Below are positions 34,092 through 41,756 of a stretch of DNA of 41,893 bases, in pieces (the first letter of the stretch is position 1; each line of letters starts with the position of its first letter). The notes beneath the pieces are model-generated. The model ran no database searches and was not told where the DNA came from. It worked only from the letters and a program-made list of their open reading frames with translations. A program made the translations under genes and the position numbers. Source of the stretch: Oscillospiraceae bacterium (GTDB taxonomy: Bacteria > Bacillota > Clostridia > Oscillospirales > Ruminococcaceae); assembly GCA_022766785.1 (NCBI GenBank), contig JALEOL010000070.1:1-41893 (forward strand). Reading direction: 5' to 3'.

Positions 34092-34120
34092 TTGTATTTA
34101 TTGCGGAAATATGATATAAT
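34092..34120 (+). promoter_or_regulatory. Promoter of the ATPase-mcrBC defence operon
   Basis: TTGTAT (34092-34097), 17 bp, TATAAT (34115-34120). It implies a leader of about 225 nt before the first large gene. Confidence 0.65.
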
Positions 34121-34157
34121 GTAAAGGTACCTCTGAAAAACTTGTTTGTGTGAAAAT

Positions 34158-34316
34158 GTGCAGAGCACTCCGCCTGTTTCAGTCAACAAGCGAAAGATTT
34201 GCGGCGATGGTGTCCTTGCCGTCGCCTGGGGCTTTCGCTTCGCAGTGCCGGAAAAAGATATAAATAAAAGTTCCGAAGTCGATGAATGGGTTCGCAAAGG
34301 GAAAATTCAAGAGTAA
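34158..34316 (+). CDS. Possible 52-aa leader peptide of the defence operon
   Basis: A GTG-started frame with no convincing ribosome site. Its second half reads plausibly as protein (AVPEKDINKSSEVDEWVRKG) and ends 33 nt before the ATPase gene. It may be a small gene, a gene remnant, or a chance frame across the structured leader (hairpin 34189-34239). Confidence 0.3.
   Translation: MQSTPPVSVNKRKICGDGVLAVAWGFRFAVPEKDINKSSEVDEWVRKGKIQE
34189..34239 (+). other. Two-part stem in the defence operon leader
   Basis: An outer stem AGCGAAAG / CTTTCGCT encloses an inner stem GGCGATGG / CCGTCGCC (one mismatch). The 51-nt structure is not followed by a T run, so it is not a simple terminator. Confidence 0.5.
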
Positions 34317-34348: not shown

Positions 34349-36640
34349 ATGCAGCACAAGGTTACTTCAGCAATCGAAAAAATTACACTCAACAGAGCAA
34401 CTTTTACGAATGTACCGATTGATGGACTTACGTTCGTCAACTTCTTTTACGGGAATAACGGAGCAGGTAAATCCTCGATTGCTCATGCCATTGAGGAGGA
34501 TGATGGCATTGTCTGGGCAGACGGCAAATCTGCTGCTGATTACGATGTTCTTGTTTATAACCAGGATTTCATCAATGAGAACTTTGCAAATTACGGTGAT
34601 CTGAAAGGCGTTTTCATTTTCGGAGAAGAAGATATTGAGGCAAAGAATAAAATATCAACGCTCACCGACGAAAAAAAGCGTAAGGCAGACGAGCGCCAGG
34701 CGGCTCTTGATGACTGGAGCAAGAAAAAGGCGTTGATCGATACTGCTCTCTCAGATTTCCAGTCAGCGTGTTTTTCTCAAACTGCTGATATCCGCAAACG
34801 CTTTGATAAGTGCATGGACGGCAAGAAGCAGAAGAAAAACTTTGCAGAAGCTGTCCTTGATGAAAAATCACCTGCCGAGCATGATCTTTCCGAGCTGGAA
34901 AGACTGTATTATGTTGCTTTTGATGAAACAGCCAGAGCCTATACCGAATTTAAAAAAGCCGGAGCCACAACCTACGGTAATCTCCCCGGCAAAGACCTTC
35001 TCGATAAGGTTATTGTCAGCAGTAGTGATACCCCGTTTGCCCGGTTTTTGAAAGCACTCGGCAACACTGCTTCTGACTGGGTTCGTGTCGGGCACACGCA
35101 TTTTACCGGCACCGCCGGGGGAAAATGTCCATACTGCCAACAGACGCTTCCGGCAGATTTTGAAACAGAGATAGCCGCCTGTTTTGATGAGCAGTATCAG
35201 CAGGATATTCGTGATCTTGGTCAGTTCCAGGGTGCATATGACCGTGAGACAGCCGGTATCACGCGGGTGTTGAAGGCAAACATCACTGATGCGATGCCTT
35301 TTGACCTTCAGGCATATCAGGAAAAGCTCGCTCTGCTGGAGAGCAATTTTGAGATAAACCGCCAGCGAATTGCAGAAAAGGTCAAGGAACCTTCAAAAAT
35401 AGTATCACTGGAAGACACCGATACGCTTCTGTTGGAGATTGGTGCTTTGATTGACGATATTAACAAGCACATAAAGGAAAATAACGATATTGTTGCTGCC
35501 AAGCGAACCAGCAAGGCAAAGTGTAAGACGGAAATCATGCAGCACCTTGCATTCATGCTTTCCGCCGAGGTGACAAGCTATCATGATAAAGTGACTCGTC
35601 TGCAAAATGAAATGGATGACATGATCGAGCGTGGCAAAAAGCTTAAAGCAAGGATTTCTGATCTGACAAAGGAGATCTCCGATCTCAACAAGCATAATGT
35701 TAATACTGAAGCTGCCATCGATAGCATAAACAAAATCCTGAGAGATTCCGGTTTCCAGGGCTTCAGTATTCAAGCCAGGGAAGGCGTTGAAAATGTATAT
35801 GAAGTTGTTCGTAAGAACGGCGATGTTGCGGAAAATCTCAGTGAGGGTGAGCGAAACTTTATCGCATTCCTGTATTTTTATCACAGAGTCCGGGGCAGTA
35901 TGAGCAGCGAAGAACTAAAGGAAAAGATAGTTGTAATTGACGACCCGGTTTCCGGTATGGACAGTACAGCTCTTTTCCTCGTCAGCGCAATTGTCAGAGA
36001 AATGATCAACGTCTGCCGCAATAATACCGAATATCCTGATCCGCAGGTGCCCGGTGATTACATTAAGCAACTGTTCATTCTGACGCATAATGTATACTTT
36101 CACCGTGAGATAACTTATCAGCAGGTTGGATACTTCGATTGCACATCGTTCTATATAATCAGAAAGAACGATAATATCTCCGCTGTTAAGCTCTGCACCC
36201 GGCAGAGTAAGGAAACACCGACAGAGAAAGAGAATTATAATCCTGTTCAAAATTCCTATGCGGCACTATGGGATGAGCTTCGGGATATCGAGTCCACGAT
36301 CCCGGCACTGAATGTAATGCGCCGCATTCTCGACTTTTACTTTTTGCAGCTTTGTGGTTACGAGGGCAGCGAACTACGCACGATCGTTCTGGAAAAGAAG
36401 GAAAACCGGGATAAGTTCATCAGACAGGTCGAGGGAGAACAGCCGGATATGACCGATTATCAGCTTGCTTCTTCGCTGCTTGCGTATATAAACAACCCCA
36501 ACGGGATCAGTGACGGCTTGAATTATGTGGAGGATCGCGATGATGCCGATGCATATAAGCGTGTATTCCAGATGATTTTTGATGCACTCGGTCAGAGTCA
36601 GCATTATAAAATGATGACCGGACAGCGAACAAGGTACTGA
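34349..36640 (+). CDS. ABC-type AAA_13 ATPase with zinc-hook motif (RloC/PrrC-like)
   Basis: A 763-aa SMC/Rad50-like ATPase. Walker A is GNNGAGKSS (about 35-43). Two coiled-coil arms (about 85-145 and 400-465) flank a CPYC hook motif (about 259-262), followed by the ABC signature LSEGER (about 496), Walker B VVIDDP with the SGMDS D-loop (about 527-537) and an H-loop LTHN (about 577). This is the AAA_13 plan of RloC and related defence ATPases. The C-terminal about 170 residues contain RRILDFYFLQLCG and HYKMMTG; the Arg-Glu-His set of the PrrC anticodon nuclease is not evident. It starts the operon and is followed after 28 nt by mcrB. A toxic effector or a DNA-sensing partner for McrBC are both possible. 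Confidence 0.85.
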   Translation: MQHKVTSAIEKITLNRATFTNVPIDGLTFVNFFYGNNGAGKSSIAHAIEEDDGIVWADGKSAADYDVLVYNQDFINENFANYGDLKGVFIFGEEDIEAKNKISTLTDEKKRKADERQAALDDWSKKKALIDTALSDFQSACFSQTADIRKRFDKCMDGKKQKKNFAEAVLDEKSPAEHDLSELERLYYVAFDETARAYTEFKKAGATTYGNLPGKDLLDKVIVSSSDTPFARFLKALGNTASDWVRVGHTHFTGTAGGKCPYCQQTLPADFETEIAACFDEQYQQDIRDLGQFQGAYDRETAGITRVLKANITDAMPFDLQAYQEKLALLESNFEINRQRIAEKVKEPSKIVSLEDTDTLLLEIGALIDDINKHIKENNDIVAAKRTSKAKCKTEIMQHLAFMLSAEVTSYHDKVTRLQNEMDDMIERGKKLKARISDLTKEISDLNKHNVNTEAAIDSINKILRDSGFQGFSIQAREGVENVYEVVRKNGDVAENLSEGERNFIAFLYFYHRVRGSMSSEELKEKIVVIDDPVSGMDSTALFLVSAIVREMINVCRNNTEYPDPQVPGDYIKQLFILTHNVYFHREITYQQVGYFDCTSFYIIRKNDNISAVKLCTRQSKETPTEKENYNPVQNSYAALWDELRDIESTIPALNVMRRILDFYFLQLCGYEGSELRTIVLEKKENRDKFIRQVEGEQPDMTDYQLASSLLAYINNPNGISDGLNYVEDRDDADAYKRVFQMIFDALGQSQHYKMMTGQRTRY

Positions 36641-36668
36641 TCATGGGACAGTTACTAAAGGTGATCAC

Positions 36669-39065
36669 ATGTTTAACCAATTTCGTTTAAAAGATGTGCT
36701 TGTTGAGTACAAGAAGAATTTCGTCTCAAAGCAATGGGGCGATGAAAAGTACAAATGGGAAGCCGTAAAGTGGTTTCAGGACAATTGGGATGTTAACGCT
36801 CCGGATTTCGCAGAAATGCTGAACCGCTCTCTGGATAAGACGTTTAACCTTCTGGCTTCCAATAACAACTTCCCGAAAGGTATGATCGTAGGCTTTGCAA
36901 AGGCAGCTCCGGAAGAGGTCCGGGCGATGTTCATTGCCCTGTTTGATGAGAGCAAGGATGTTTTTGAGCGTATGGACGCGTTCAAATTCCAGTCGTCTAT
37001 CCTGCTGGAGAAATACGGAAACGGCGCAGCACAGCACTATCAGTATGAGAACGCTATAAGCACATACCTCTGGCTGCGTTATCCGGATAAGTACTACATC
37101 TATAAATTTGGTGAGGTAAAAACCGTTGCAAATGAGCTTGAGGCAGACTACCGCTTCAAAAAGGGTGCTTACGCAGACAATATCCGTAATTTTCTGCGGC
37201 TCTATGATGAAATCAGTCTGACCTTAAAAGAGGACACTGAGCTTGTAAATCTGTTTCAGTCACAGTTGACGGATACCTGCTATCCCGACCCGGAACTGAA
37301 AACGCTGACCGTAGATGTTGGATTTTACATCAGCAGATTCTACTCGCAAAATGATACTAATACAGACGCAGCTTCAGATTGGTATGGAGTGGATTATAAT
37401 CCCGGACTTACTGCCGATGACTGGGAAAAACTTCTGAAAAACCAAACCGTCTTCACGACCGGTGCGCTGGAAATCATGAAGCGCATGAAAGACTACGGTG
37501 GAACAGCTTCCTGCACACAGTTGGCGGTTAAATACGGCGAAACAAATAACTTCTACAATTCCGGCTCTGTTGCCTTAGCACGGCGAATCTGTGAAGCTAC
37601 CGGGGTGAATCCTGAAACAAGAGAGGACGGTTCAACGCAATGGTGGACGATTCTCTACACCGGTAGAAATGCCGGAAAGAATGAAGACGGCAGTTTTATC
37701 TGGAAACTTCGGGATGAACTCTCCGCCGCCCTTGATAAGGTGGATTTGAGCAATATCGAACTGTATGTCGCTGCCGCCCCAGGCGAGGAAGAACGTGGTT
37801 ACTGGTGGCTGAATGCAAATCCGAAAATTTGGAGTTTTTCCGATATTGCCGTTGGTGAAGTGCAGTCCTGCACGCTCTACAGCGAGAACGGTAACAAACG
37901 TCGTATTTTCCAGAACTTCCTTGATGCGAAGGCGGGCGACATGATTATCGGATACGAATCCAATCCGGTAAAACAGATCGTTGCGATCGGTCGTGTCAGC
38001 GCAGAGCAAGACGGTGAGAAGTTGTTCTTTGAAAAGGTCGAAGGTCTGACTTCACCGATTGATTATGCGACCTTGAGAGGATGCCCGGAACTGGAGCGTA
38101 TGGAGTATTTCCAGAATCCACAGGGCAGCCTGTTCAAGCTCACCAAAGGCGAATACGAGTTTATTCTTGATATGATTCGGGAAGAAAATCCGGTTGCGCC
38201 GGAAGCCTCCATTGACGCCTACGCAAAGAGCGATTTCCTGGATGAAGTATATATGACCGAGAAACGCTATGAAAACCTTGTGGCAGTTCTCCGTAATAAG
38301 AAGAACATCATTCTGCAGGGTGCTCCCGGTGTTGGTAAAACCTTCGCCGCAAGGAGGCTGGCATGGTCTATGATGGGAGAAAAGGATGACAGCCGCATAG
38401 AGTTCGTCCAATTCCACCAGAATTACTCCTATGAGGATTTTATGATGGGCTATAAGCCTGTTGAGAACGGATTTGAACTGAAATACGGCATCTTCTATCG
38501 TTTTTGTCAGAAAGCCGCCAACCAGCCGGATAAGGAGTTTTTCTTTATTATCGATGAGATCAACCGTGGTAACATGAGCAAGATCTTCGGCGAATTGCTG
38601 ATGCTGATTGAAAAGGATTACCGAGGAACTAAGGCAACGCTGGCGTACAACGGACTCTCTTTCTCCGTACCCAAAAATCTGTACATAATCGGCATGATGA
38701 ACACGGCAGACCGGAGCCTTGCCATGATCGACTATGCGCTTCGCCGCCGTTTCAGTTTCTTTGAGGTGGAACCCGGCTTCGATTCTGAAGGTTTCATTCA
38801 TTATCAGAACGGTCTGAATAATGAAACGCTTGATGAATTGGTGTCCAGGGTAAAAGACCTGAATCGTGAAATTGCCGCAGACAAATCTCTGGGCAAAGGC
38901 TTCTGCATCGGTCACAGTTATTTCTGTGGAAGAGATGTTTGTACGGATAAATGGCTTCACTCCATCGTCGATTATGATATTCTGCCGATGCTCAGTGAGT
39001 ATTGGTTTGATGACGCCAACAAACTTCAGCGCTGGGAGAACATTTTACAGGGTGTGTTTCAATGA
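36669..39065 (+). CDS. mcrB: McrB-type GTPase with EVE modified-base-reading domain
   Basis: A 798-aa motor of a type IV (modification-dependent) restriction system. An N-terminal helical domain (about 1-215) and a winged or four-helix domain (about 235-335) of unknown type are followed by an EVE/PUA-like domain (about 367-515; GYWWLNANPKIWSF start), the fold that binds modified bases such as 5-methyl- or hydroxymethylcytosine. The AAA+ GTPase has Walker A GAPGVGKTF (about 551), Walker B IIDEINRGNMSKIFGEL (about 626) and the McrB signature MNTADRS (about 677), then RRRFSFFEVEP. E. coli McrB has a different reader (DUF3578). The start follows AAAGGTG. It overlaps mcrC by 4 nt (ATGA). Confidence 0.93.
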   Translation: MFNQFRLKDVLVEYKKNFVSKQWGDEKYKWEAVKWFQDNWDVNAPDFAEMLNRSLDKTFNLLASNNNFPKGMIVGFAKAAPEEVRAMFIALFDESKDVFERMDAFKFQSSILLEKYGNGAAQHYQYENAISTYLWLRYPDKYYIYKFGEVKTVANELEADYRFKKGAYADNIRNFLRLYDEISLTLKEDTELVNLFQSQLTDTCYPDPELKTLTVDVGFYISRFYSQNDTNTDAASDWYGVDYNPGLTADDWEKLLKNQTVFTTGALEIMKRMKDYGGTASCTQLAVKYGETNNFYNSGSVALARRICEATGVNPETREDGSTQWWTILYTGRNAGKNEDGSFIWKLRDELSAALDKVDLSNIELYVAAAPGEEERGYWWLNANPKIWSFSDIAVGEVQSCTLYSENGNKRRIFQNFLDAKAGDMIIGYESNPVKQIVAIGRVSAEQDGEKLFFEKVEGLTSPIDYATLRGCPELERMEYFQNPQGSLFKLTKGEYEFILDMIREENPVAPEASIDAYAKSDFLDEVYMTEKRYENLVAVLRNKKNIILQGAPGVGKTFAARRLAWSMMGEKDDSRIEFVQFHQNYSYEDFMMGYKPVENGFELKYGIFYRFCQKAANQPDKEFFFIIDEINRGNMSKIFGELLMLIEKDYRGTKATLAYNGLSFSVPKNLYIIGMMNTADRSLAMIDYALRRRFSFFEVEPGFDSEGFIHYQNGLNNETLDELVSRVKDLNREIAADKSLGKGFCIGHSYFCGRDVCTDKWLHSIVDYDILPMLSEYWFDDANKLQRWENILQGVFQ

Positions 39066-40114
39066 ATAAGGACAAGAGCATCTTCATAAAAAACATATAT
39101 TATATGCTTTCATATGCCTTTACAGCTCTGAACCAGGGCGGCTATGAGGATGTTGCTACCGAAGAGTTTGAGAATATACACAACCTGTTTGCTGCAATTC
39201 TCGCAAAGGGCATTGGAAGACAGCTAAAGCAGGGTCTTTATCGTGAGTATCTGAATAAAAAAGAAACGGTTCCTGTCGTTCGGGGCAAGATCGATATTCC
39301 CGGAACGATACAGAACCGTCTTGCGAGAAAGCAAGTATTGACCTGTGAATATGATGATCTTTCTGAGAATAATTTGCTGAACCAGATTCTCAAAACGACG
39401 GTTATGCTTTTGCTGCGTCACGCAAAGGTAGATCAGGAGCACAAAAGTGATCTGAAGAAGGAGATGCTTTTCTTTTCGGGCGTTGATACTATCGACCCGA
39501 GCACGATTCGCTGGTCAGCCATTCGATTTCAGCGTAACAACAACACCTACCGTATGCTCATCAGCTTGTGCCAACTTATCATTGAAGGAATGCTGCTGAC
39601 CACAGACTCCGGCGAATATCGGTTAGCATCTTTCATTGATGAGCAGCGGTTGAACCGCCTGTATGAGAAATTCATACTGGAGTATTACGCTAAGGAATGC
39701 CCACAGGTAACGGCGACGGCATCTCAGATTCCGTGGGCGCTGGACGATGGTATCGGCACAATGCTCCCGGTCATGCAAAGTGATATTACGCTGACCAAGG
39801 GTAGTGAGGTTCTGATCATTGACGCAAAGTATTATACGCACACCACACAGGCAAAGTACGATGTGCATTCCTTACACTCCGGTAATCTGTACCAAATCTT
39901 CACCTATGTTAAAAACAAAGATACGGAGTTCGGCTGTGAACCGCACCGGGTATCCGGAATGCTTCTGTACGCAGCAACTGACGAAGCGATCCAGCCGGAC
40001 AACAGCTATCAGATGAGCGGTAATAAAATCAGCGTGAAAACGCTGGATCTGAACCGGGATTTTGCGGAAATCGCTGCACAGTTAAATAAAATTGTGGACG
40101 AATATTTTGTGTGA
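39062..40114 (+). CDS. mcrC: McrC-family nuclease subunit
   Basis: A 350-aa partner of McrB that activates its GTPase and cuts DNA. The N-terminal half (KNIYYMLSYAF start, VRGKID segment) is the McrB-contacting part of the McrC family. The C-terminal PD-(D/E)xK nuclease core has MQSDITL (Asp about 242), IIDAKYY (Asp-x-Lys, about 255-257) and the Q of NLYQIFTYV, so the catalytic set is complete. It is translationally coupled to mcrB by an ATGA overlap. No terminator follows before the remnant at 40117. Confidence 0.93.
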   Translation: MNKDKSIFIKNIYYMLSYAFTALNQGGYEDVATEEFENIHNLFAAILAKGIGRQLKQGLYREYLNKKETVPVVRGKIDIPGTIQNRLARKQVLTCEYDDLSENNLLNQILKTTVMLLLRHAKVDQEHKSDLKKEMLFFSGVDTIDPSTIRWSAIRFQRNNNTYRMLISLCQLIIEGMLLTTDSGEYRLASFIDEQRLNRLYEKFILEYYAKECPQVTATASQIPWALDDGIGTMLPVMQSDITLTKGSEVLIIDAKYYTHTTQAKYDVHSLHSGNLYQIFTYVKNKDTEFGCEPHRVSGMLLYAATDEAIQPDNSYQMSGNKISVKTLDLNRDFAEIAAQLNKIVDEYFV

Positions 40115-40389: not shown

Positions 40390-40399
40390 TGGTCAACAC

Positions 40400-40497
40400 C
40401 TCCGATATTTCTTTTGCAACGTTGGTTTTTCCACCATGGTAGCGCATACACATCTCCTTTCAGGGTAAAGAATTGCCCCCCCCATTGATGGGAGTGC
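40400..40497 (-). repeat. 98-bp direct repeat R, distal copy
   Basis: 94 of 98 bases match 40731-40828. Read on the minus strand it carries a GAAAGGAG-type ribosome site (here TGAAAGGAG), a short frame MRYHGGKTNVAKEISE (from 40447), and a terminal GGAG that acts as ribosome site for what follows, here the methylase start at 40389. Confidence 0.92.
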
Positions 40498-40720: not shown

Positions 40721-40730
40721 AGTACATCAA

Positions 40731-40828
40731 CTCCGATATTTCTTTTGCAACGTTGGTTTTTCCACCATGGTAGCGCATACACATCTCCTTTCGGGGTAAA
40801 GAATTGCACCACCCATTGCTGGGAGTGC
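40731..40828 (-). repeat. 98-bp direct repeat R, proximal copy
   Basis: Second copy, beginning 8 nt after the stop of the 61-aa zinc-ribbon gene. The internal frame starts at 40778 (MRYHGGKTNVAKEISELM), the first residues of a Dam-like methylase, and runs out of frame into the 73-aa gene. Only four substitutions separate the two copies. Confidence 0.92.
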
Positions 40829-40836
40829 GGAATTTA

Positions 40837-41022
40837 TTAATTGATATTCACTTTATCACCACATTTGGGGCATATAAAGCAAAAACATTTTTCTGTTGGA
40901 GTGGTTATCCCTTTATAAGTACCTTGTTCACAGCTTGCACATTTTACTTCTTCGCCATGAAGCAATGATAAAACGAAATTTAACGACTCTCTTGACGAGG
41001 GATTAGTATCGGTTTTATTCAT
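40837..41022 (-). CDS. 61-aa zinc-ribbon protein, probable cognate immunity gene
   Basis: The start chosen is the ATG at 41022, which overlaps the toxin stop as ATGA and has GGAGGCG 7 nt upstream (inside the toxin gene). An upstream ATG at 41037 is less likely. Cys pairs KCASC (about 28-31) and CPKC (about 51-54), with CFCF before, form a zinc ribbon. Tight coupling to the toxin domain and small size are the usual signs of an immunity gene; direct evidence is lacking. An antitoxin-like DNA-binding role is an alternative. Confidence 0.65.
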   Translation of the reverse strand: MNKTDTNPSSRESLNFVLSLLHGEEVKCASCEQGTYKGITTPTEKCFCFICPKCGDKVNIN

Positions 41023-41417
41023 TTGACTCGCCTCCAATTGAAATTGGGATAATTCTTCTTGACCATTTTTATTATAGCCTTTTTATCAGCAAATGTCAAG
41101 GGTTTTCCGAATTTAAATAGATGTTCTGCTGCAAAGCATTGAGCTTCAGACCACTGATTTCCACCAATGTTGTACTTTGCGTGTGTTACTTCATGTACTA
41201 AGGTTGAAGCAGTTTCAATGACAGATTTCGTAGAGTTTGCAAATATCACAATAGTATGACCTTGTTGATATCCTAGAACGTTTTCGGGAATATCAGTATC
41301 ATATGTTACTTCAACGTGCATATTGTTTTCCTTGATATACTGCAAAGTAGCTCTTCCTATCTCATTTTTGTTAAGCGCATTGAACAGTTTGTGTGGTGTG
41401 ATTGCATCTTCCTTCAT
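41019..41417 (-). CDS. HEVTH metallopeptidase toxin domain
   Basis: 132 residues from the ATG at 41417. The zinc motif is LVHEVTHAKY (His75, Glu76, His79), followed by a second helix with SEAQCFAAEHL, whose Glu (91 or 98) may be the third ligand. This arrangement is that of small gluzincin-like domains found at the C-terminus of polymorphic toxins. There is no signal peptide. Upstream the same frame stays open through 16 further codons (DINFKKWDGYFTIFPP) back to a TAA at 41466 that ends the phage capsid fragment, so domain and capsid protein were probably one polypeptide. AAGGAAG inside the coding start and no clear ribosome site upstream make independent translation uncertain. Confidence 0.7.
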   Translation of the reverse strand: MKEDAITPHKLFNALNKNEIGRATLQYIKENNMHVEVTYDTDIPENVLGYQQGHTIVIFANSTKSVIETASTLVHEVTHAKYNIGGNQWSEAQCFAAEHLFKFGKPLTFADKKAIIKMVKKNYPNFNWRRVK

Positions 41418-41465
41418 TGGTGGAAAAATAGTAAAATAACCGTCCCATTTTTTGAAATTGATATC

Positions 41466-41756
41466 TTAGGATTCAAGCGTCATCTGCGCCTTATCAAACT
41501 CTCGCTGCTTCCTCGTGACCGTACCGGTCTTACCGGCGAGCCTGCGATCATACCCGGCAACGAAAGTCCTCTCATACTGCGTGTAGCTGTCCGCGGCCTT
41601 ACAGAAATCCTCATAGATATCCTTCTGCCGCCGGAGCTTAATACTGGCAGCGGTGAAGTTCTCCTCGTCCCCGGCAGCGTCGGCAACAATGCAGCGGTCT
41701 TTCTGCTTACGCATAGCGCGTTCCATTTTCCGCATCTGCTGGGAAGACTCGTATTC
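41466..41756 (-). pseudogene. C-terminal fragment of a phage minor capsid protein
   Basis: About 96 codons on the minus strand. It reads YESSQQMRKMERAMRKQKD, a Lys/Arg/Glu helix, IKLRRQKDIYEDFCKAAD and YTQYERTFVAGYDRRLAGK, matching the end of the phage minor capsid protein 2 family (portal-proximal, MuF-like). The 5' part is missing: at about 41757 the sequence changes to a plus-strand recombinase gene. It ends at TAA 41466, in frame with the toxin domain downstream. Such capsid proteins are known carriers of C-terminal toxins in phages. Confidence 0.7.

Follow-up and report, generated by a model that had tools for sequence, protein, structure and literature searches.

The window analysed here is a 41,893 nt stretch of an Oscillospiraceae draft genome (contig JALEOL010000070.1). 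Our subject is three same-strand open reading frames (ORFs) in its ORF list, which encode an RloC-like ABC ATPase, an EVE-McrB and an McrC (Table 1). The first two genes lie 28 nt apart and the last two overlap at an ATGA. An earlier note had read the trio as a three-gene defence operon. Comparison with relatives suggests another picture: the window appears to hold a shortened version of a mobile defence cassette, from which two ORFs (A and B) and most of a small helix-turn-helix (HTH) gene are gone, and in which a slot for restriction-modification (R-M) genes is empty.

The gene identities given in that note stand, as do its hook motif and EVE reader. The ATPase matches Pfam family AAA_13 (PF13166, E 1.2e-122) and the PADLOC candidate model PDC-S06 (705 bits, in a library supplied with no cut-off), while the PADLOC PrrC model gave only a weak match (1.5e-4). 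EVE-McrB has Pfam matches to AAA_5 and EVE, DUF3578 is not among the 13 Pfam families listed for it, and its AAA+ GTPase part matches solved E. coli McrB structures. McrC scores 402.8 bits against NCBIfam NF007277 (cut-off 338), in addition to its Pfam match.

The relatives came from 79 ATPase loci on genome contigs (the best 80 of 190 matches) and 75 on viral contigs, 154 in all. As these are best matches that overlap one another, the counts describe the set and not nature. Relatives have, in order, ORF A, ORF B, a small HTH gene, the ATPase, the R-M slot, EVE-McrB and McrC. A was found at 116 of the 154 loci, B at 117, the small HTH at 69 and the N-terminal region of EVE-McrB at 22; where at least 2.3 kb of upstream sequence was available (136 loci), A was present in 110 and B in 109. 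All 115 loci with both A and B have A, B and the ATPase in that order on one strand. In an evenly drawn class sample the ATPase was found, at E 1e-40, in 3 of 391 genomes, the window's own included. Plasmid relatives are distant (below 31% identity among the matches listed) and contributed little; one of the five inspected proved to be an EVE-McrB match with no ATPase. The minus-strand genes upstream of A in L018, L022, L026 and L054 are presumably of phage type. B-type genes occur as an adjacent pair ahead of the ATPase in L052, L073, L171, L173 and L203.

Three type III R-M loci (L019-L021) were at first counted as lacking A and B. We rejected this when a whole-genome search found B and the contigs showed A, B, HTH and ATPase on one strand, with the R-M genes between. 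The first count was an artefact of the flank examined, because about 11 kb separates A, B and HTH from the ATPase downstream of them.

ORF A encodes about 300 residues and ORF B about 205. Compared with the BELL-type helical effectors of bacterial amyloid signalling, A likewise has a helical part, followed by a tail that is disordered, but the few members scanned had no family match and no clear fold match. The scans covered three members each of A and B for Pfam, and three of A and four of B for PADLOC, NCBIfam and PHROGs; no named Pfam, PADLOC or NCBIfam family was found among them, only rows at chance level (best E about 0.03). The scanned B members, at this small size, gave no match to an NTPase family either, and the B core is tentatively EVE/YTH-like. 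The HTH of an intact relative, L211, matches HTH_17.

What links A and B is a pair of motifs. Among 105 adjacent A-B pairs, thinned to 42 clusters with a single locus each, the motif of the C-terminal tail of A matches that of the N-terminal head of B within the locus (permutation P 1e-4). Adjacent genes with C-terminal and N-terminal motifs matched within a locus are also a feature of bacterial amyloid-signalling (BASS) pairs (PMC7889193), and this likeness suggests that A and B may assemble as amyloid. The cassette differs from BASS pairs of an effector and an NLR (NOD-like receptor) in that the place of the NLR is usually taken by the small B and an ABC ATPase encoded apart from it. An NLR-type partner was found only in L239 (L239:9001-12713), where a NACHT-SNaCT14 protein and a DUF6650 protein come after A in the place of B, with a helicase behind them. 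The N-termini of the NACHT-SNaCT14 and DUF6650 proteins match the C-terminal motif of A, making L239 a possible link between the A effector and bacterial NLR-like proteins.

In the window, homology to intact cassettes begins at 34243-34245, inside the 3'-terminal part of the HTH gene and out of frame. The homology to the nearest relative, L018, is 86% over 117 nt, and the HTH remnant has two bases fewer than L018, which itself has a type I R-M system in addition to A, B and HTH. Profiles of A and B gave nothing significant in the window. The source genome is incomplete (2.48 Mb, 112 contigs, 86% complete); in it B was not found by a search that gave matches in two control genomes, and A was not found by a single-protein search run with no control. 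As the partners present in relatives are missing, the trio is not a complete unit, and the three-gene operon of the earlier note is better described as the remnant of a larger cassette.

This loss raises the possibility, unlikely in our judgement yet deserving most weight among the alternatives, that McrBC alone works in the window and the ATPase is a passenger decaying since A, B and HTH disappeared. The missing partners are what such a history would leave, and genomes with EVE-McrB-type genes are mostly without the ATPase. However, the ATPase ORF is intact and, compared with that of L018, has a ratio of nonsynonymous to synonymous change (dN/dS) of 0.08 at dS about 1.1. Among changes unique to one branch the ratio is 0.29 for the window and 0.30 for L018. 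The window ATPase shows no relaxation, though a recent loss of its partners would not show in these figures.

The slot behind the ATPase is filled in many different ways. It holds HsdM-HsdS-HsdR in L018, a BsoBI-like enzyme with a methyltransferase in L010, an Eco57I-type methyltransferase with a T5orf172-ResIII protein in L132 (L032 is similar), and an AlwI-like enzyme, D12 methyltransferases, a PLD-helicase and an AAA_23 protein in L034. By eye, L022 has other, transporter-like genes there, and the slot is empty in L025, L033 and the window. Exchange is seen in L032, L033, L034 and L070, whose DNA from A to the ATPase is 91-96% identical, yet which have three different slot contents; their EVE-McrB DNA is 86-99% identical where compared (331-2293 nt).

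EVE-McrB follows the ATPase in 22 of the 154 loci; when only the 89 loci with 7.3 kb or more of downstream sequence are counted, it does so in 21. Distances between ATPases correlate with those between EVE-McrBs (r 0.79, Mantel P 2e-4) in a test of the window and 15 of the 22 loci, 16 non-redundant sets in all, whereas HsdM and ATPase distances, available for 9 loci, gave a lower r of 0.52. Because EVE-McrB recurs behind the ATPase and the distances correlate, the pairing is more than chance. In a tree of 71 ATPases, from genome and plasmid loci only and with L063 and L086 left out, all 13 included EVE-McrB carriers, the window among them, fall in one clade of 25 rows (support 95).

When the search starts from McrB, the pairing proves rare. 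Eight genomes of the class sample besides the window's match the EVE-McrB query, and none is among the three with the ATPase. None of nine EVE-McrB loci from those genomes has the ATPase nearby; four include the EVE part, and only four reach at least 7.7 kb upstream. These genomes and loci indicate that EVE-McrB, reported from nearly 300 genera (PMC7641849), needs no such ATPase, and that the pairing belongs to one clade of ATPases. Conserved co-occurrence of ATPase, EVE-McrB and McrC, to which the earlier note had looked, is thus seen from the ATPase side but not from the other, and the rarity of the ATPase beside EVE-McrB is largely the outcome which that note had said would count against it.

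It could be argued from this that the ATPase and EVE-McrBC defend the cell independently of each other and, as neighbours in a defence island, only have a promoter in common. Each does occur without the other, the same neighbourhood holds other types of R-M system, and the EVE-McrB label changes six times over the ATPase tree, although some of these changes may reflect cut contigs. Set against this, ATPase and EVE-McrB have diverged in step while what lies between them varies, and we regard independence as rather improbable.

The ATPase itself resembles RloC and PrrC, as the earlier note had proposed, in its AAA_13 match, its hook and a motif like R-x3-E. Walker A, LSEGE and Walker B were all found in the window ATPase in a three-row alignment. 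In a larger alignment, of 72 of 92 ORF matches and the window, all 73 rows have CPYC or CPFC, a CxxC zinc-hook motif of RloC type with putative zinc binding and coiled coil. The nuclease triad of RloC, R-x3-E-x36-52-H, is backed by mutation, as changing R, E or H to alanine each abolished activity in vivo (PMC2610378). The window ATPase keeps R658, but has D662 for the glutamate and N718 for the histidine. Only five of the 112 full-length ATPases accompanied by B have a histidine in that position, and the other 107 do not; among 29 full-length ATPases with no B in the stretch it is present in 19, missing in 9 and a gap in 1. The sequences thus describe an ATPase that is RloC-like but is not an RloC.

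The earlier note had remarked on the lack of an obvious nuclease triad and supposed that the effector may be new, and we judge it right on both. Its idea of tRNA cleavage fares worse: that the ATPase is an anticodon nuclease which acts once McrBC fails or is inhibited, as RloC and PrrC act (PMC2610378), would suit its family, hook and R-x3-E-like motif, but is very improbable because the catalytic histidine is missing in most of the clade, and we rejected it. It is about as improbable that the loss of A, B and HTH is an artefact of assembly: the break coincides with a small repeat (34106-34244, directly to its left) in a fragmented draft, but a false join is made less likely by the two clear partial copies of that repeat, only 85% (C8:40837-40960) and 83% (C55:2053-2127) identical, and the HTH remnant is itself altered. 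The repeat is intergenic and by eye hairpin-like, possibly a mobile element at the edge of the deletion.

Other partial losses were seen among the relatives. In L003 and L067 (Eubacterium aggregans) the ATPase relative ends after about 590 residues and a transposase-like ORF adjoins it; no R-M genes were seen in that stretch by eye. In L209 (L209:9894-13180) the ATPase match covers residues 1-263 only and is followed by an ORF of 836 residues and then EVE-McrB/McrC.

Table 1. Features of the ATPase and EVE-McrBC locus in the window
Feature	Position	Strand	Basis
Small repeat element; right edge is the homology break relative to intact cassettes	34106..34244	.	Partial copies elsewhere in genome
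3' remnant of small HTH gene, frame broken	34243..34316	+	Homology to L018 and others
ABC ATPase, AAA_13 / PDC-S06, RloC-like, 763 aa	34349..36640	+	ORF, family matches, alignment
Walker A GNNGAGKS, ATPase residues 35-42	34451..34474	+	ATPase alignment
CPYC hook, ATPase residues 260-263	35126..35137	+	CPYC or CPFC in 73/73 alignment rows
ABC signature LSEGE, ATPase residues 497-501	35837..35851	+	Invariant in three-row alignment
Walker B and D-loop region, ATPase residues 529-538	35933..35962	+	Three-row alignment
R658...D662, counterpart of RloC R-x3-E	36320..36334	+	E to D in window; E in closest relatives
N718 at column of RloC-triad catalytic His	36500..36502	+	ATPase alignment
Empty slot, 28 nt; R-M genes there in many relatives	36641..36668	+	Comparison with relatives
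EVE-McrB, 798 aa	36669..39065	+	ORF, family and structure matches
EVE domain, residues 378-502 of EVE-McrB	37800..38174	+	PF01878, 3.3e-7
AAA+ GTPase domain, residues 546-695 of EVE-McrB	38304..38753	+	PF07728, 3e-21
McrC nuclease subunit, 350 aa	39062..40114	+	PF10117, 1.5e-39; NF007277

Downstream, two near-identical stretches of about 85 nt were seen by eye 3' of mcrC (about 40395-40478 and 40722-40806), and a phage minor head protein fragment with a metallopeptidase-like ORF on the minus strand (41019-41735) looks like prophage debris.

The explanation we favour, with modest confidence, is an R-M-linked sensor ATPase with an amyloid-signalling pair of effector proteins; in the window, the ATPase and type IV restriction would be what remains of it. 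The full cassette would consist of A, B, the small HTH, the triad-broken RloC-like ATPase and an exchangeable R-M module, with EVE-McrB/McrC in one clade. EVE-McrBC proteins cut modified DNA, and those of the cassette would be expected to do the same. By analogy with RloC and PrrC, the ATPase of complete cassettes is most likely a sensor of DNA ends or of the restriction enzyme's state. B, with its short prion-like head and possibly EVE/YTH-like core, would relay this signal to A by templated assembly, and A, a helical domain with a matching prion-like tail, would arrest or kill the cell once restriction has failed, presumably protecting against phage. With A, B and HTH missing and the slot empty, the window would be left with type IV restriction and a sensor lacking its usual effector. 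If its ATPase has a role at present, it might be the backup or licensing role that the earlier note had supposed.

A wider version of this explanation is tentative. Such cassettes may form a class of restriction-coupled amyloid signalosomes, in which the nuclease-dead RloC-like ATPase and an EVE/YTH-like, prion-headed reader template a helical effector on failed restriction or modified nucleic acid. The class would be a chassis for type I, II, III and IV modules, its effector could be rewired to a NACHT receptor, and the window would be a natural deletion of its signalling half.

The ATPase shares with RloC and PrrC an ABC ATPase with a CxxC hook (on a Rad50-like coiled coil in RloC) and a linkage to R-M genes (in PrrC). 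It differs in that nearly all of the cassette clade lacks the catalytic histidine, in its partner genes A, B and HTH, and in the exchangeable R-M set beside it. EVE-McrB and McrC have the domain make-up and gene order of known type IV restriction systems, but stand here at the end of a cassette headed by an ABC ATPase. The window ATPase fits PDC-S06, although most of its relatives sit in an A-B-(HTH)-ATPase arrangement and not alone. A link to type I R-M is known for the E. coli-type McrB branch (PMC11090510); the main text of that CoCoNuT census does not contain the terms RloC, PrrC, AAA_13 or ABC ATPase. We found no description of the cassette in the open PubMed Central literature, judged on titles and the starts of abstracts, with subscription papers mostly outside this scope.

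Clade-14 bacterial NACHT proteins are described as lacking effector domains that can readily be discerned (PMC12169576). A is a candidate effector for some of them, the clade-14 membership of the SNaCT14 protein of L239 being taken from its name. If the favoured explanation is true, it joins restriction, RloC-type sensors and prion-like immune signalling, which have hitherto been separate fields. It would also give a testable answer to how cells could arrest themselves when a restriction system of almost any kind fails, with the window as a natural deletion that leaves restriction without signalling.
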